Shown here: piece by piece, positions 13,408 to 58,137 of the stretch | How the letters are laid out: each line of letters begins with the position of its first letter | Numbering within the stretch: position 1 is the first letter of the stretch | Source: Nannochloropsis oceanica | Taxonomy: Eukaryota; Sar; Eustigmatophyceae; Eustigmatales; Monodopsidaceae | Length of the DNA stretch: 64,000 nucleotides | Assembly (NCBI GenBank): GCA_004519485.1 | Contig: CP038133.1 | Location: 1,198,830-1,262,829, forward strand | Direction of reading: 5' to 3' | Made by a program: the position numbers and the translations under genes | The notes under the pieces: generated by a model | Told to the model about the DNA's origin: nothing | The model's input: the letters and a program-made list of their open reading frames with translations, nothing else | Database searches by the model: none

Positions 13408-16400
13408 TTACAAATCTCGAGACATCGCTGCCCCTCCTCGCAGCTTACGCCCTCCCTCCTCCTTGACCTGCACCACCCTCCTCTTCCCCCCCTCCCTCCT
13501 TCCCTCCTTGCTCATCACCAACATTGAAGGCGACCGCATCAGCTGCGCCGTGCTTCCCTCCCTCCCTCCCTCCGTCCTTCCCATGACCCGACTCACGTTC
13601 TCCGCTTCCCAGTCCTCCATCTTTTTATGTTTCGCCTTTCCCACGGCCACCGCCGGTCCTGCTGCTGCTGCTGCTGTTCCCACCGGCAGGGTGTCATACA
13701 ACGACCGCACCTGCAGGCTGGCTAAGAGCTCCTCCCTCCCTGCCTCCTTCCCTCCCTTCCTCGGCGTGAATACGACGTGCTTCTCCTCACCTTTCCGGAG
13801 ATGGAACGCATTGTCCGAAAAAGAGCCTGGGAAGCCGATGGCCTCAATGAAGACATACAGCGCTGTGTTATTCGCAGTCACGCTCAGTTCCACAGGAGTG
13901 GGGGAGGGAACAGGCGAGGGAGGGGGGGAGGAAGGGGGAGGGAGGGCTTGGATGGTGACGGTAGTGGCCGGGAGAAGGACTTCCTTGAGGACGGTGAAGT
14001 GGAGGACTGATGGGCAGGAAGGAAGGGAGGGAGAGAGGGCGGGAGGGAGGGGGAGCGTGAGTGTCATGGAGGAGGTCACTATGGTAGCCGTACGCCTCTC
14101 TCCTTGCCTCCTTCCCTCCCTTCTTTGCTTACGTGTCGAGGTCGGTTCGCCCTGGGTGGGGATGAAGGTTGTTTCGAGGAAGCATTGAGCGGGCACCAGG
14201 TCTTTGCCGAGTAGAAGGGCCTTGCTGGTGGACTCAAGGACGAGGGCGCTGGGGAAGAGGGAGGGAGGGAGGGAGGGAGGATGGGAGGGTGGGAGAGAGG
14301 GAGGGAGTGGCGGTGAGGAAGGAAAGTCCTGCTGGTGGACTGCAGGGTGATGGTGCTGGGAAGGGAGGGAGGGAGGGGAAGGAAAGTACTTTCGCAAACA
14401 CAGTGGAAAGGAGGGAGGGAAAGAGAACGGGAGAGAGGGCGCACCTATCATTTCCTTGCATGGCAACGGTCTCGTTCCACTCGTTCAAGGGCACGCTGCT
14501 GTCCTTGTAGGCGTAGAGGCGAGTGCGCAGGACGCCCTCGGTGCGGTCGGAGGGCTTGAGGTCGCTGGGGAGATGGAGGGAGGGAGGAAGGGAGGGTGGG
14601 TCAGGTGGCAAAGCTGGACTGAGTAGAGGTAGATCGCAAAGTAGGGAGGGAGGGAAAGAGGAGGGCACCTGGTGACGTGGACATTGACCGTGCCCGTGGC
14701 CGGGTCATGATACCCGGAGACGAGGACGGGCGCGAAGACTTTCTTGAGGGCGTAGTGGAGAGGCTTCCACTTCCCGCCGTACTCAATGGAGGACCATGTG
14801 GGGCCCTGCGAGGAAGAGAGGGAGGGAGGGAGGGAGGTGAGAGACGGAGGGAGGAGGAGGACCATGCTGGGAGGGAGAGGGGGTCGGAGGCGATGAAGGA
14901 AGAGAGGCGACGTACCTTTCTGCAACGGACACGAAAGCAAAATGCCCATCCCCCCACTCCTCCCTCCCTCCCTCCCTCCCTACCTGCCAGACGTCGTTGA
15001 GCTGCCAGTAGAGGGCGCCCATAGTCCTGGCTGGTGTGGCCTTATGCCGGCGCCAGCTGCTGATGGCCGTGTCGTAGCACCGGGACTGTTGGAGCTGCCC
15101 AAGGGGGAGGGAGGGAGGGAGGGAGGGAGGAAAGTTGAGGCCCTCGCTGCGTGTAAGGCTGTCGGATACGAGCATCAAACACCCTCCCTTCCTCCCTACC
15201 TGCGTCAGGTAGATGTAGTCGTCAAAGACCTTGGCCTGGCTCTGATTCGCCGAGGCCTCAGCGGGAGGCAATTTAAAGTGGAGGTCGATCATGTACTCCA
15301 GCTGGAGGGAGAAAGGGAGGGAGGGAGGGGTGGGGGGGGTTAGGAGTGGAAGACTTGAAAAGGGGGAATTCGGGTGGAAGCCGACTGGGGGCTTAGGGCG
15401 AGGAAGGGAGGGAGGGAGGGAAGGATGGGAAATCTTGGGACGACAAAGGACGAGTACCTGCGCATGCCCTTCCTCCCTCCTTCCCTCTCTTCCTCCCTCC
15501 CTCCCTCCCTCTGTCTGTACCTGATCATTCCCACCCTCGTGCCGCTGGCGGAAGAGAAGCATGTCCCCCTTTCGGTTGTAGTCCTCAGGGGCCAGCACCT
15601 GGGCAGGAGGGAGGGAGGGAGGGAGGGAGGGAGGGAAGGAAGGGGGATCGATGGGTGGGCGGAGGGCGAGAGCAGAGGGAGGGAGGGAGGGAGGACAGCC
15701 GCGTACGTACCTTACTGTACGTCTCGAAGGATGGCAGGGACTGGAAGCCGAACTCGCTGACAAAGCGGGCATTGGGGAAGGAAGCAGGGAGCTCGCAGTC
15801 GGAGTAGAAGTCGTAGTGGTGGAGGTCGCCGTAGGTCAAGTCTCCGGGATAGCCCCACCGCTTGATGTACGGGTCCTGAGGGAGGGAGGGAGGGAGGGAG
15901 GGAGGGATCGTCATCGCCCCCGGACAGCACCCTACATGCATGCACACCTTTCCCACTCTCCGTCCCTCCGTCCGTCCCTCCGTCCCTCCGTCCGTCCCTC
16001 CCTCCTTCCTGATCTCCCTCCCTCGCTTCCTTCTTCCTTTTTGCCCTCCCTCCCTCCTCCCCCCCTCCTTTACCTCGGCAATCACGCCGTTGGCAGGCGA
16101 GGAATCGACCCACGCACGGGCCGGGTCCAGGGCATGTACCACGCGGTGGATAGTGTTAATGTACAGCTCCACGTAGTCCACTACGTAGAGGTCACTGAGG
16201 GAGGGAGGGAGGGTGAGTCAAGGGCATGTACCACGCGGTGGATAGTGTTGATGTACAGCTCCACGTAGTCCACTACGTAGAGGTCACTGAGGGAGGGAGG
16301 GAGGGAGGGGCTGCCTACTTACCGGTTGTCGGTGCTTTGCTTAAACCACGTGAGAGCGATTTCGTTTTCGTTGTTGCCCCCCCATAATGCTATGCTGGGG

Positions 16401-19400
16401 TGGGACTGGTGACGCCGGACCTGAGGGAGGGAGGGAGGGAGGGAGGGGGGGAGGAGGGTTAAATCGAGAGAGAGGGGAGGGAGGGAGGGAGGACGTAGGT
16501 ACCTGCTGGGTGACTTCCGCCTCCACCAGAGCCAAGAAATCCGTGCTACGGGGATAGAGGGCGCTGTACAAGGGGGGAGGAAGGGAGGGAAAAAGGGAAG
16601 GGAAAAGACGATGAGGCGGGAGGGAGGGAGGGAGGGAGGGGCACGCACGTACCAAGCAAACATGAATTCACTCCAGATAAGGAGGCCCTTCTCGTCGGCC
16701 ATGTTGAAGAAAGACTCGGGCTGGTAGTAACCTCCGCCCCAAATGCTGAGGGAGGGGAGATAGGAGAGGAGAAGGAGAGAGAGAGTTGAGTGGAGGAAAG
16801 AGGGAGGGAGGGGGTGAGGGAGGGAAGGGGTGAGGGAGGGGCGCGTACCGAAGCATGTTCATGTTGGCGTCAACGGATGATTGGAGGAGCCATTCAATGT
16901 CCTCGTCGTCCGCCTGTGTGGGTGGGGAGGGAGGGAGGGAGGGAGGGAAGGTCAGAACCGGATAGAGGAGGAGGGAGGGAGGAAAAAAATCCGACCCTAC
17001 AGGAGCAAGGGCAGAAAGTCAACGAGATGTGAGGGAAGGAGGGAGGGAGAGAGGGAGGGAAGGGGGGGCTACCCACCTCGTTGTAAAACACCCCCAGGGG
17101 GATGAGGTTGGCGCCCTTGGAGAAGATCGGAACGCCGTTAACCTCGAAGTAGAAAGAGAGGCCCTCCGAGCCGGGCACGGGCTCCTCCACCAGGCGCACT
17201 GTACGGATACCCACGTTCTTCACCTGAGGGAGGGGGGGAGGGAGGCAAAGGTCAGCGGAAGGATGAGGCCCGCTTTTGGTCGCTTCTTTCACTCATTTTG
17301 ACCACCATCCCCTCTTGTCTTTCCCTCCCTTCCTCCCCTCCTACCTTGCTCTGACCGGCCATGTCAACGTGCAGCTTGTAGAGGTGCGGCTCCCCCAGCC
17401 CCACGGGCCACCAGCGCTCGGGCTTGAGGATCGTGAAGGAGTGGATGACCTGGGCAGGGAGGGAGGGAAGGAGGGAGGGTCACGTGAGGTTTCCAAGAGA
17501 AGAAGGGAGGGAGGGAAGGAAGGAAGGAGGGAGGGAGGGAGGGAGGGAGGCGGACCTCGTTCTCGCCGGGTTCGAGGGTGACGGTGGTGGAGTAGGGAGC
17601 ATTGCCACTCTCCTGTCGAAGGGAGGACAAGGAGAGGAAGGTAGAAGGTAGTTCGAAGTTAATATGTTTAATTTAAGATGGAGGCTTAGGTAGGCCATCG
17701 CTGTTCGGTTGCTCTCGCCCTCTTTCCTTCCCGCCTCCTCCCTTCCTCCTTCCAAGACTTTGATTCATACGCCGCCACCCATTCCTCCCTTTCCCCTCCC
17801 CTCCCTCCCTCCCTCCCTCCCTACCTGGAGGTCAAGGCTGAGGCTGGTCTGCACTGCAGCGGGGACGTGGGAGATGAGGGCCGTGGCTGTGATGACAACA
17901 GATCCGTCGGATTTGGGTTCCTGGAGAGGGAGGGAGGGAGGGTGAGGTTCTGCAACGGCCTGTGGTTAATCGAGGGCAAAGGTCCTCCACTCCCCTCCTC
18001 CCTCCCTCCTTCCCTTCCTCCCTACCTGCGTGATGAGCACGTCACTGAGCTCGCCCACCGACGCCTTGAAAAGACGCACCCCCTTAATGATGCCTTGAGG
18101 AATAAAGGCCGGACCCCAGTCCCACCTGTGGGAGGAAGGGAGGGAGGGAAGGAAGGAGGGAAGGAGGTCGGTCGGTCGGTCGGTCGTAAGTCAAGAACCA
18201 GAAAGGGGCACGAGGGAAAAGAGAGAGAAGAGGAAGGGAGGGAGGGAGGGAGGGAGGGAGGGAGGGAGGGAGGGAGGGACCAACCCAAAGTCGGAGGAGG
18301 TCTTGCGGAGGAAGTTTTTGGCGCTGTAGCCCGGCCATGTGTTAAAAAAAAGCACCTCGGGCACTGAATAAGGGTATTCCGCGCGCTCTTGCCCTGGGAA
18401 GGGAGGGAGGGAGGGAGGGAGGGAGGGAGGGAGGGGAGCTCAGATTGCAGTAGGATTCTTATGGAGATGCCTCAGCGCAGCGCTACTCTTCCCTCCCTCC
18501 CGCCCTCCCTCCCTCCCTCCCTCCCTTCTTACCCGTATACTCAAGCGCTGGTTCGATTGTAACGGTCAACATGTTGACGCCATCGGCCGCCAGAATGTCG
18601 TTGGGCACATGGTATGTGTATTGAAGGAACGAGGAGCGAGGAGGGGAGCCTGGAGGAAGGAAGGAAGGAAAAGAGCAAGGGAGTGAGGGAGGGCGAGTGG
18701 ATGTCGTTGGGCATATGGTGTGTGTAATGAAGGAACGAGGAGCGAGGAGGGGAGCCTGGAGGAAGGAAGGAAGAAAAAGAGCAAGGGAGTGAGGGAGGGC
18801 GAGTGGATGTCGTTGGGCATATGGTGTGTGTAATGAAGGAACGAGGAGCGAGGAGGGGAGCCTGGAGGAAGGAAGGAAGGAAAAGAGCAAGGGAGTGAGG
18901 GAGGGCGAGTGGATGTCGTTGGGCACATGGTATGTGTAATGAAGGAACGAGGAGCGAGGAGGGGAGCCTGGAGGAAGGAAAGAAGGAAAAGAGCAAGGGA
19001 GTGAGGGAGGGCGAGTGGATGTCGTTGGGCATATGGTGTGTGTAATGAAGGAACGAGGAGCGAGGAGGGGAGCCTGGAGGAAGGAAGGAAGGAAAAGAGC
19101 AAGGGAGTGAGGGAGGGCGAGTGGATGTCGTTGGGCATATGGTGTGTGTAATGAAGGAACGAGGAGCGAGGAGGGGAGCCTGGAGGAAGGAAGGAAGGAA
19201 AAGAGCAAGGGAGTGAGGGAGGGCGAGTGGATGTCGTTGGGCACATGGTGTGTGTAATGAAGGAACGAGGAGCGAGGAGGGGAGCCTGGAGGAAGGGAAG
19301 AGGGGCGAGGTGTTGCCCTTCCAAGCCATCAGCATGAGCATCACTACCCTCCCTCCCTGTCTTCCTCCCTCCGTCCCTCCCTCCGTCTCTCCCTCCGTCC

Positions 19401-20383
19401 CTCTCTACCTGGTAAGGCCTTCCCATTCCACGTCACACTCGCCACCGTGTCGATCCCATCAAATTGGAGCATCCAGGGAGCGTCTTTATCCCTGTCAGCC
19501 ACCTTCATGCTCTGGCAAAGGAAGGAAGGAAGGAAGGAAGGAAGGAAGGCATGTGAGCACAGAAGGGAGGAAGGAAGGGAGGAAGGAAGGAAGGAAGGAA
19601 GGAAGGAAGGCATGTGAGCACAGAAGGGAGGAAGGAAGGGAGGAAGGAAGGAAGGGAGGGAGGAATCTAACCTTGAGGTCGACCTTGGTGGAGTAAGTCC
19701 AAGCATCTTGACACACCCACTGATACTTCAACTCGTTGTCGCGGTAAAGCGGGTCCTCTGAGTGGAGAGGGAGGGAGGGAGGGAGGGAGGAAGGGAAGGA
19801 GGAAGGGGATGAGCGATCAATGACCATCTTAATTTTTATGCCGTGCGGACTGTCGTCCCTCCCTCCCTTCCCCCCCTGGCCTACCTGCCAAGATTCCGCT
19901 CTTTATTAAATCCAAGTGGACCGTGCCTGGCACCGCGGCCTCGGGCACCGAGTATTCGCCGTCACGCTGGAGAAGGGGAAGAAGGAGAGAGGGAGGGAGG
20001 GAGGGGGGTGAGGATAGTCCATTCGCCTTCTTTTATCAGCGACAGTTGCAGGTTAAAAGCCCCGGGATGAAAAGAGGGTGGAACGACGCAGTCCAAAAGA
20101 GTGGTCATCCCCAGACACAGCCGCATGGCACATACATACATACATAAACACACGAGTTGTTGGGAGTACGTACGTTGGTTAGGCTCCATTGCTGTCCATC
20201 CTTGCTGTTGAGGGAGAAAAAAGAGGCAGGCTCGTTGGCATCCGGTGCATGGGCTTTGTTGCCTCGGTGCTTGGCATCGCCGATGTGTGGCAGGAGGATG
20301 AGAACGAGGAGGAGGAGAGCGGAGGGTAGGACAGCGGGAACTGTGAACGAGGGGAAGAAGGAAGAGCCCCGTCTTGTAATCAT
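13408..20383 (-). CDS. MANBA: GH2 beta-mannosidase, about 24 exons
   Basis: Beta-mannosidase removes terminal beta-mannose from manno-oligosaccharides and N-glycan fragments, normally in lysosome or vacuole. Exon 1 (20383-20174) encodes a signal peptide ([19 protein letters not shown]). Exons 2 (19966-19885), 3 (19757-19672) and 4 (19511-19409) give [31 protein letters not shown] and [15 protein letters not shown], typical of the GH2 sugar-binding domain. Later exons carry [31 protein letters not shown], the acid/base Glu in [14 protein letters not shown] (about 16350) and the nucleophile Glu in [11 protein letters not shown] (about 15755). C-terminal exons include [12 protein letters not shown] and [15 protein letters not shown]. 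Exons are short (20-50 codons), in contrast to the intronless GH5 neighbour. Introns are GGGA/TCCC-rich. Exon 5 (18649-18533) abuts a 106-bp minisatellite. Not every splice site was verified. Confidence 0.9.
16129..16308. repeat. 92-bp tandem duplication of intron end plus exon head in the beta-mannosidase gene
   Basis: Two near-identical 92-bp copies, beginning at about 16129 and 16221, each hold a TCCC tract, a CAG acceptor and the exon segment encoding [21 protein letters not shown]. They differ by one base in the core (gttaat versus gttgat). Only the copy at lower coordinates continues into the rest of the exon. 92 is not a multiple of three. Confidence 0.9.
18595..19300. repeat. 106-bp minisatellite carrying splice acceptors
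   Basis: The word atgtcgttgg recurs at 18595 (one unit starts inside the exon), 18701, 18807, 18913, 19019, 19125 and 19231, exactly 106 bp apart. That makes six full units plus a partial one. On the gene strand each unit has a pyrimidine tract, CCTCCAG, and the first about 55 nt of beta-mannosidase exon 5. Units differ by few bases (cacatggtatg versus catatggtgtg), so the array is young or homogenised. Confidence 0.95.
19510..19662. repeat. GGAA tract with two copies of a about 60-bp unit, in a beta-mannosidase intron
   Basis: Runs of ggaa surround two copies of catgtgagcacagaaggg (near 19549 and 19611). They lie in the intron between exons 3 and 4 of the beta-mannosidase gene. Simple slippage or unequal exchange is enough to explain it. 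Confidence 0.85.
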
Positions 20384-55633: not shown

Positions 55634-56843
55634 TATAATCTCATGCACATCATGCACACACACGCTCAAACATGTTCAATGTCGCTATTCTTGATCAGTC
55701 CCTTTCTTTCTCCCTGCTTGTTTCAACTTCTCTTCTCTCTTTTAACTCCTCTTCCCTTCTTTAACTCTCGTCGACAGCTTCTTTCCACTTCTCCCTTTTT
55801 TCTTCCTGTACTGCCGTCGCCAGCTTGCTTCTCTTTAAATTCACCTTCTCTTTCTTTCTTGCCGTCGCCAGCTTGCTTCTCTTTAAATTCACCTTCTCTT
55901 TCTTCACTGCCGTCGCCAGCTTGTTTCTCTTTAAATTCACCTTCTCTTTCTTTCTTGCCGTCGCCAGCTTGTTTCTCTTTAAATTCACCTTCTCTTTCTT
56001 TCTTGCCGTCGACAGCTTGCTTCTCTTTAAATTCACCTTCTCTTTCTTTCTTGCCGTCGCCAGCTTGCTTCTCTCTTTAAATTCACCCTCTCTTTCTGTA
56101 CTGCCGTCGCCAGCTTGCTTCTCTCTTTAAATTCACCTTCTCTTTCTTTCTTGCCGTCGCCAGCTTGCTTCTCTTTAAATTCACCCTCTCTTTCTTTACT
56201 GCCGTCGCCAGCTTGCTTCTCTCTTTAAATTCACCCTCTCTTTCTGTACTGCCGTCGCCAGCTTGCTTCTCTCTTTAAATTCACCTTCTCTTTCTTTCTT
56301 GCCGTCGCCAGCTTGCTTCTCTCTTTAAATTCACCTTCTCTTTCTTTCTTGCCGTCGCCAGCTTGCTTCTCTCTTTAAATTCACCCTCTCTTTCTGTACT
56401 GCCGTCGCCAGCTTGCTTCTCTCTTTAAATTCACCTTCTCTTTCTTTCTTGCCGTCGCCAGCTTGCTTCTCTTTAAATTCACCCTCTCTTTCTTTACTGC
56501 CGTCGCCAGCTTGCTTCTCTCTTTAAATTCACCCTCTCTTTCTGTACTGCCGTCGCCAGCTTGCTTCTCTCTTTAAATTCACCTTCTCTTTCTTTCTTGC
56601 CGTCGCCAGCTTGCTTCTCTTTAAATTCACCCTCTCTTTCTTTACTGCCGTCGCCAGCTTGCTTCTCTCTTTAAATTCACCCTCTCTTTCTTTACTGCCG
56701 TCGCCAGCTTGCTTCTCTTTAAATTCACCTTCTCTTTCTGTACTGCCGTCGCCAGCTTGCTTCTCTTTAAATTCATTTTATCTTCTTCAACTCCCGTCGA
56801 CAGCATGTTTCCATTTCTCCCTTCCCGTCCACCTTCCCTTCTT
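55084..56843. other. Spacer, 1.8 kb, between DAP3 and TspO genes
   Basis: Both flanking genes are on minus, so this holds the DAP3 promoter and the TspO 3' region. A GT/AT dinucleotide-rich part lies at about 55125-55170. An ATT microsatellite occupies about 55602-55634. The right half is a large minisatellite, listed separately. Open frames reading through the array are compositional. Confidence 0.5.
55765..56810. repeat. 48/50-bp minisatellite, about 20 copies
   Basis: The unit reads roughly gccgtcgccagcttg, cttctctttaaattcacc, then ytctctttctt (or gtact). Copies of 48 bp contain ctctttaaa and copies of 50 bp contain ctctctttaaa, intermixed. Diverged units (gtcgacagc) mark both ends. On minus, 48-bp units would encode a basic 16-aa repeat like KVNLKRSKLATAVKKE, but 50-bp units shift the frame. 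The array is most likely noncoding and 3' of TspO. Confidence 0.93.
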
Positions 56844-57817
56844 TTACTCCTCTCGCTTCCTGAAAGGATACATAGGTTCCGATCCATTCAGCCTCCATAT
56901 AGAGAATACCAACACATTGGCCACGGTGATCCATACCGCGCTAGGCGCCAGGACCTTTCCCGCCAGAGGCAAGGTGTTATAGAACTGAACGACGGCGTTC
57001 ACCACAGAGAGCCACACCAGAAAGACACCCGGAACGGAGGCGCCTTGCCGATCCTCAACGTTCGTGATGGTGTTCCATGTATCTCCGATCGAGAGGTGGA
57101 GGATGAGTGCGAGAAGAGCGGGGGCGAGAAGGGTATTGGTGGTTTGGTAGATGAGGGAGGAGGCGATGGTGCGGAGAACACCGATGGAAATCCAGATGAC
57201 TGGAAAGGCCTTGGCCGGTGGCCTGAAGACGAGAAAGGAGGGAGGGTGGACAAAAAGATAATTGAAAGGAGGATAAATTTAAAGTGTAACATGGTCAAAG
57301 ACAAAAAGCTTAACAGGATCATTACGTACATCCAGGAAGGGCGTTTCTTGAGGATGCGCTTCCTTTCCTCTTTCTCAACGCTTGGCCGCGAGTTGTCAAG
57401 GATGGAAAAGACTCGAGACCTCAAACTCATGAAGGCAAAGAAGGCTCGCACCACCCACAAGCTCACTTGCTTGGATGCATTCAACTTGATGAATGCCGTT
57501 TCCATGAACGCCATGACCGCCGTTATGGTGGCAAATTGCAATGCCGTGGCCACAACCCAGGTCCCAAGCGCACCCCATTGCACGGGCGGACCCTTGTTGG
57601 AAACGGGGAGGTCTTCGAGGTAGTCGGAGCGCAGTGGAGCCACAACCGTAGGCATGGTGGCTAAGGAGCGCGTGTGAGGCTTAAGCAGGGAAAGACGGGA
57701 GGTAATGTGATGCCTCTGTGCCATGTTGGTTGGCAATCTGAAGCCATGCACGGCCACCATCAGGGCCATCAGCACCAGGCAAAGGCACCGGGAAAAAGAT
57801 GTTAACATGGTTGTCAT
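56844..57817 (-). CDS. TSPO: TspO/MBR family membrane protein with plastid-type targeting sequence
   Basis: Two exons, 57817-57330 and 57222-56844, join in phase to 288 aa. TspO proteins are five-helix membrane proteins binding porphyrins, sterols and other ligands, in outer membranes of bacteria and mitochondria, and in plant endomembranes. The junction recreates KKRPSWMPPAKAFPVIWISI, matching the hallmark KPSWTPP...PVWTLLY. Later segments LSIGDTWNTITN and VLAPSAVWITVANVLVFSIW, then RLNG, fit helices 4-5 (family ending W.N..IWRLN). The N-terminus is a signal peptide ending AVHGFRLP, which resembles the ASAFAP-like cleavage motif of secondary-plastid preproteins. Residues 25-120 are an extension with an extra helix. 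A plastid or ER location is inferred. Confidence 0.82.
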
Positions 57818-58137
57818 CGTCCTGTGTATTGTGTAGATGTGGACTTAAGTCGTGTGGATCTTTAACTTGTTGTTTTTTTCGTCCGCTGAGCTTCGCGCGG
57901 CGGTTGATAGCCGAATTGGAAGCCCGAGGCAAGGCGGAATGTCGATACCTTCCTTACCGCTATCGAACCTATCCCCACGTGATACATCTAACCGTATCCT
58001 TGGTACAGCCCGGATACCCCTTCGTCGCGGCTGGCTTCAGGCACTGCATTTTATAGGGCAGGGTCCAGCAGTCGACCTCCCCACTCACCATCCCACAATC
58101 TACTCCACAGGTACCCTCCGACACAGCCTAGAGAGGG
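57818..58137. promoter_or_regulatory. Divergent promoter region, TspO / MYND gene
   Basis: 320 bp between opposite start codons. No tracts or named elements recognised. Confidence 0.45.

Follow-up and report, generated by a model that had tools for sequence, protein, structure and literature searches.

Minisatellite duplications of intron-exon boundaries, known as mirages, are described by PMC3087553 in amphioxus, in Adh3 and in the globins BflGb6 and BflGb9. The mirage of BflGb6 includes the 3' end of an intron and the 5' part of an exon, with 6 and 3 units in two haplotypes, one of which was apparently misassembled in the amphioxus draft genome (PMC3087553). The RT-PCR results in that report suggest that regular splicing is undisturbed by the amphioxus mirages (PMC3087553).

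Other tandem duplications that involve splice sites are covered by PMC4974935. In the potato case, the duplication carries over the 3' splice site, the polypyrimidine tract, and a putative branch site; SPOG_01682 of fission yeast has an intron that extends over four copies of a 24-bp segment, and ATP2A1 is named alongside it among the tandem-duplication cases (PMC4974935). PMC9225289 describes the cis-competition experiments of Reed and Maniatis, in which a single donor is offered several 3' splice sites that are nearly the same. Where splice sites are recognized by intron definition, the more upstream 3' site has the advantage (the intron proximity rule); with exon definition, the outcome depends on proximity across the exon (PMC9225289).

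We analyzed a 64,000-nucleotide stretch of the genome of the alga Nannochloropsis oceanica (the window, at C7:1198830-1262829), which contains a seven-copy array of an intron-exon boundary. This array has the defining anatomy of a mirage, in a lineage that is distant from amphioxus. As in the mirages of PMC3087553, the boundary is copied in tandem as a minisatellite, there are several units, and many of them have splice signals; and the copied stretch, like that of BflGb6, runs from the 3' end of an intron into the 5' part of an exon. The differences are that the host is an alga instead of a cephalochordate, that the units are of 106 bp and exactly spaced, that the array is known from the sequence of one assembly, and that a single gene with CT-tetranucleotide introns has three boundary duplications of different divergence. 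Also, all of the duplications here are on the acceptor side, while BflGb9 has a 3' exon boundary instead (PMC3087553). The literature that we searched consisted of open-licence papers; within it, PMC3087553 places mirages in amphioxus, and we found no splicing data for Nannochloropsis.

The unit also resembles the potato duplication in carrying a 3' splice site, but unlike the cases in PMC4974935, it makes no new intron. Intron gain by tandem duplication of AGGT does not apply here: the unit contains no AGGT and no donor-like GT, so the existing intron would only grow. In comparison to the constructs of Reed and Maniatis (PMC9225289), this is a natural, seven-fold case, and the site that we expect to be used is the most distal one, which is the opposite of the intron proximity rule.

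A seven-copy array in a β-mannosidase gene

The array lies in a gene for a GH2 β-mannosidase (13408..20383, minus strand). Our model of this gene was built by hand from the sequence; it has 24 exons and 23 introns and encodes a protein of 1025 amino acids, with one open frame through all joins. The protein has the N-terminal domain, the Ig-like domains, and the overall match to solved β-mannosidases that characterize the family. Specifically, PF22666 (133.5 bits), PF17753 (58.5 bits), and PF00703 (34.8 bits) score above the cut-off (PF17786, PF13364, and PF02836 are below it), and among solved structures the protein matches PDB 6ddt_A, "Beta-mannosidase" (E = 1.4e-151, residues 64–932). By eye, we also noticed an N-terminal hydrophobic stretch; the original description of the enzyme as secreted would rest on this stretch. 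We searched the genome with 667 amino acids of the protein for a paralog in the pre-duplication state and did not find one: the 26 matches listed, which are the best candidates, are all inside this gene (C7:1213551-1218804).

The affected boundary is between intron 4 and exon 5. Exon 4 (19409..19511) ends at a donor at 19408 (CCTTACCAG/GTAGAG, where the slash marks the junction), and exon 5 (18533..18649) has 117 nt in the model. Intron 4 (18650..19408) is 759 nt long in the model, and would be 123 nt if the first acceptor were used. The other 22 introns in the model are 82–219 nt.

Tandem Repeats Finder (TRF) reports the array at 18595-19296, with a period of 106, 6.6 copies, 97% matches, and a score of 1348. 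We describe this mirage-type minisatellite (18595..19296) as seven 55-nt copies of the head of exon 5 and six 51-nt, CT-rich spacers between them. On the minus strand, the sequence CCTCCAG/GCTCC recurs with the last intron base at 19286, 19180, 19074, 18968, 18862, 18756, and 18650, and every step is exactly 106 nt. (We number the copies in this order, along the transcript.) Each of the seven acceptors is followed by the 55-nt head, so just the first part of exon 5 was copied. The acceptors also share the same intron phase, as the split codon G/GC is identical at each. Joined to exon 4, every copy would give the same junction, TTACCAG/GCTCCCC. Thus, the original prediction of a minisatellite that has copied both a 3' splice site and the start of an exon in a β-mannosidase gene, with seven acceptors 106 bp apart and all in one phase, was accurate.

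The six full units have 0–2 differences each from their consensus, and the spacers of acceptors 2–7 are at most one base off theirs. Between the first acceptor and the last (636 nt), the only AGs are those of the six later acceptors. The same 636 nt contain 8 GTs, in the context CTCGTTCCT or CATGTGCCC, and by eye these are not donor-like. Because the unit lacks a donor-like GT, we ruled out that the units are separate exons. Acceptors 2–7 share two branch-point-like words, CTCAC at -34 and TTCAT at -78. The spacer preceding copy 1 is shorter and lacks the CTCAC word; by eye, it is a deleted form of the other spacers. Copy 1 does have a CTGAT word, which is followed by an AG.

There are three variable sites in the exon head, and all of them change amino acids. 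The translations are FLQYTYHV in copy 7, FLHYTHHM in copies 2, 3, 5, and 6, FLHYTHHV in copy 1, and FLHYTYHV in copy 4. From copy 1 to copy 7, the base at site 42 is G, A, A, G, A, A, and G, which is a three-unit period: G42 (valine) is found in exactly those copies whose acceptors are in frame (1, 4, and 7), and A42 (methionine) in the out-of-frame copies. Elsewhere in the genome, there are six short array-like matches (on C21, C9, C28, C26, C3, and C19), with 71–88% identity.

Other boundary duplications in the gene, and a scan of other stretches of the genome

The gene contains a second duplication of the tail of an intron and the head of the next exon, at intron 15 and exon 16 (16125..16305; two nearly identical copies of a 92-bp unit). 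The upstream acceptor (16287) would leave an intron of just 36 nt and leads to a stop in exon 16; the downstream acceptor (16195), which is the model's choice, gives an intron of 128 nt. A third and older duplication involves the tail of intron 22 and the head of exon 23 (14249..14356), with acceptors at 14356 and 14249. These copies are 107 nt apart, and their heads are identical at 26 of 40 positions, in register with the AG. If the upstream acceptor were used, translation would leave the frame after about residue 787 and meet a stop in exon 24. There is also weak evidence for a fourth, nearly erased remnant in intron 20 (14806..14867), where CAG/CATGGTCCTCC lies 61 nt before the acceptor.

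To quantify these resemblances, we compared each exon head and each exon tail to its own intron, with 400 shuffles for each of the 23 introns; the p values are uncorrected. Four of the 23 exon heads resembled their own intron at p < 0.05: those that follow introns 4, 15, and 22 at the floor of 0.002, and the one that follows intron 20 at 0.025. For exon tails, there was one case in 23 (intron 8, with a rounded p of 0.05). We also compared all heads to all introns. Introns 4 and 15 both scored 48 against their own exon heads, intron 22 scored 15, and intron 20 scored 12; the off-diagonal head scores had a maximum of 15 and a 99th percentile of 13. So, intron 22 ties the highest unrelated pair and intron 20 is under the 99th percentile. 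For tails, the best own score was 10, with an off-diagonal maximum of 15 and a 99th percentile of 11. We are less sure of the duplications in introns 22 and 20 than of those in introns 4 and 15: the support for both comes from the shuffle test and, for intron 22, from the register with the AG as well.

Intron 3 contains a repeat of another kind (19519-19665), in which 2.4 copies of a 61-bp unit repeat the CTCAC branch-point-like word and a CT tract without an acceptor.

Words of the form (CCCT)n-CAG are typical of this gene's acceptors. Across the genome, CCCTCCCTCCCTCAG occurs 539 times and the reversed word occurs 43 times, which makes it 12 times more common; CCTCCCTCCCTCCCAG shows little excess (127 versus 97 for the reversed word). 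We checked the positions of 81 of the 100 listed places with CCCTCCCTCCCTCAG, which are the ones on C1–C6 (the other 19, on C7, were left out). Most of these (73/81) are in the outer quarters of the contigs, with only 7/14 on C6. If these words are acceptors, which we checked at a few places, then introns with CT tetranucleotides may be characteristic of the ends of chromosomes. If C7 is similar in length to C6 and C8, the β-mannosidase gene is itself close to the end of its contig.

We also scanned 28 other stretches of the genome (253,003 bases, including 2,500 N in L011) and found no duplicated acceptor and exon head at a distance of 400 nt or less. These stretches hold 77 acceptor-like sites with strong CT tracts, 33 of which are of the CCCT/CCTT type. 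They are a poor denominator because most of them come from the interior of contigs, where words of the (CCCT)n-CAG form are less frequent. The acceptor scans filter out simple heads, and the 106-bp array itself is recovered by TRF and not by these scans. Two close pairs of CCCT-type acceptors, in L038 and L039, were ruled out as further mirages, as their exon heads differ.

A few other repeats turned up along the way. When the scan was extended to 800 nt, it reached a 690-bp tandem repeat at L013:518-2466 (2.8 copies), which has acceptor-like sites on both strands. At L018:6936-7063, a 63-bp unit (2.0 copies) has a donor-like site (GTGAGAGACG) in each copy and is a possible donor-side duplication. 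L013, L018, L020, and L033 all contain TRF arrays. Within the window, the acceptor scan picked up an array at 55801-56811, to the left of a minus-strand reading frame (56999-57844). Its 50-bp unit is rich in pyrimidines and is repeated about 20 times, in most cases with CGCCAG, and there is a higher-order period of 148 bp.

Choice of acceptor

Since 106 leaves a remainder of 1 when divided by 3, just two of the upstream acceptors keep the frame, as was originally predicted. These are 18968 (copy 4), which would add 318 nt and 106 amino acids, and 19286 (copy 1), which would add 636 nt and 212 amino acids. The protein is open with either of these or with 18650 (copy 7), the probable authentic acceptor given the homology and the sequence of the copy. 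With the other four (19180, 19074, 18862, and 18756), there is a stop 11–36 nt before the end of exon 5.

Our model uses 18650 because the N-terminal domain is then contiguous. With this acceptor, the protein aligns to 6ddt_A with just two extra residues at the junction, and PF22666 matches in one stretch (138.2 bits with the head of copy 7). With the 212-residue insert, the score drops to 128.7 bits and the match is split into two stretches. The heads themselves differ little by this measure: 137.6 bits for copy 4, 136.1 for copy 1, and 133.3 for copies 2, 3, 5, and 6, so the two in-frame copies nearly match copy 7.

Introns 15 and 22 offer parallels. There, the upstream acceptor leads to a frame shift or a stop, so only the downstream copy gives a full-length member of the family. 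By analogy, we expect the downstream copy to be the productive one in the seven-copy array as well. Together, the family alignment, what the last copy encodes, and these two parallel cases in the same gene favor 18650.

In contrast, nothing local favors the last acceptor, because acceptors 2–7 share the branch-point-like words and have nearly identical spacers. More generally, the branch-point argument is weak: 16 of the 23 introns have a yUnAy word at -60 to -15, compared to 12.7 expected from shuffles. We found a yUnAy word in or near the AG-free stretch of 20 of the 23 introns; in the first copies of introns 15 and 22, this stretch lacks such a word. As for length, the 123-nt intron that ends at 19286 is typical for this gene, as against 759 nt for 18650. 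By the rules described in PMC9225289, intron definition would favor an upstream acceptor, and exon definition would favor 18650.

Predicted RNA folding gives a further argument. The GA-rich 5' end of intron 4 (19343..19402) is predicted to pair with the CT-rich spacers, mostly those of the upstream copies: 9.7–14.7 pairs are expected with each of the spacers before 19180 to 18862, 0.0 with the spacer before 19286, and 3.4 and 3.8 with the last two. In the folded pre-mRNA, the predicted unpaired fraction is 0.82 for the spacer of 18756 and 0.78 for that of 18650, versus 0.52–0.71 for the first five. If the GA tract is replaced, then copies 2–7 are alike (0.85–0.88 unpaired). We also folded transcripts that were cut 60 nt past each acceptor, and from the first acceptor to the last, the unpaired fractions of the acceptor's own spacer were 0.31, 0.19, 0.42, 0.48, 0.58, 0.80, and 0.78. 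In these same transcripts, the AGs of the first two acceptors were the most open (0.75 and 0.65).

This argument for the last acceptor is two-edged, both because in the cut transcripts pairing is strongest in the spacers of the first two acceptors and yet their AGs are the most open, and because other introns with GA-rich starts also pair their ends and presumably are spliced. Such introns are common in this gene: 11 of 23 (introns 2, 4, 5, 7, 8, 10, 16, 18, 19, 20, and 23) are GA-rich at the start (at least 65% in 40 nt) and CT-rich at the end. Ten of the GA-start introns, folded alone, had predicted energies of -42 to -103 kcal/mol. Among the 12 other introns, seven were at 0 to -4 kcal/mol and five were at -9 to -47 kcal/mol.

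Origin of the array and alternative explanations

The array is probably a mirage-type minisatellite that arose by duplication of the tail of intron 4 and the head of exon 5, and that now behaves as intron and is spliced mainly at 18650. Slippage or unequal exchange would have duplicated the intron tail along with the 55-nt head of exon 5, probably starting at the CT-rich end of intron 4, and repeated duplication would have led to seven copies. The latest enlargement was probably one block of three units (318 bp), because of the pattern at site 42, and the three-unit periodicity suggests unequal exchange. The mature mRNA would have exon 4 joined to the last copy at 18650, and the six upstream exon heads would now be part of the intron. 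Such an array would be tolerated because, after this kind of duplication, an authentic boundary that still works remains downstream. The GA-rich 5' end of intron 4 may help, if, as the folding predicts, it base-pairs with the CT tracts in upstream copies, so that the last two copies stay the most open. The most likely effect of the duplication is probably the lengthening of an intron rather than new proteins.

It was originally proposed that the array might be a splicing buffer or a source of length isoforms. The first idea fits in a passive sense, in that a usable authentic acceptor is left downstream, and in no other sense. Length isoforms are not favored: homology, introns 15 and 22, and the sequence of copy 7 all point to 18650.

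A different possibility is that acceptors 2, 3, 5, and 6 are sometimes used, leading to a premature stop, so that the copy number sets the fraction of β-mannosidase mRNA that is productive. Four of the seven acceptors do lead to a stop in exon 5, and acceptors 2–7 each have their own CTCAC at -34 and CT tract. On the other hand, the amphioxus mirages are said to leave regular splicing intact (PMC3087553). We consider this explanation to be unlikely.

We think it quite unlikely that the in-frame acceptors 19286 or 18968 are used, wholly or partly, to place a Ser/Pro/Leu-rich insert of 212 or 106 residues in the N-terminal GH2 domain, with the array growing in frame-keeping steps of three units because it is translated. 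Several observations fit this reading. The 123-nt intron to 19286 is within the 82–219 nt range of the others, and the intron proximity rule (PMC9225289) would favor this acceptor. All frames are open across the array, valine at site 42 is found in exactly copies 1, 4, and 7, and the last enlargement looks like 318 bp. However, with the insert the PF22666 match falls into two stretches, and the insert itself matches no family above the cut-off. Copy 1 has the shorter spacer without CTCAC, and the upstream acceptors of introns 15 and 22 shift the frame. The three-unit period reflects one event, which would have about a one-in-three chance of keeping the frame. Finally, it is true that the array has no stop in any frame, as was originally noted, but this is unremarkable: among 2,000 mononucleotide shuffles of the unit, 26% were stop-free in all three frames, so we rejected the absence of stops as evidence. 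Similarly, 71% of the 2,000 shuffles had at most one AG. The open frames and the single AG per unit are largely an effect of composition.

It is extremely improbable that the copy number is an assembly artifact of a shorter duplication: tandem repeats can be misassembled, as apparently happened with BflGb6 (PMC3087553), but for the matching published assembly PMC6610115 reports about 113-fold PacBio coverage, polishing with PacBio and Illumina reads, and a mean read length of 4.3 kb, which exceeds the 702-bp array, and the array holds distinct unit variants.

If spliced mainly at 18650, the array would be a counterpart in nature to the experiment with duplicated splice sites: six competitors that are nearly the same lie upstream of the expected site, in a gene whose introns are short. 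What makes it of interest is which rule would let the spliceosome skip over all six of them, contrary to the intron proximity rule. It is very doubtful that the array is partly translated via 19286 or 18968 and expands in frame-keeping steps of three units; if this were true, then a minisatellite would act as a length switch in an enzyme. More broadly, the boundary duplications of this gene, which are of differing divergence and were each apparently absorbed into an intron, suggest a possible route by which introns grow.
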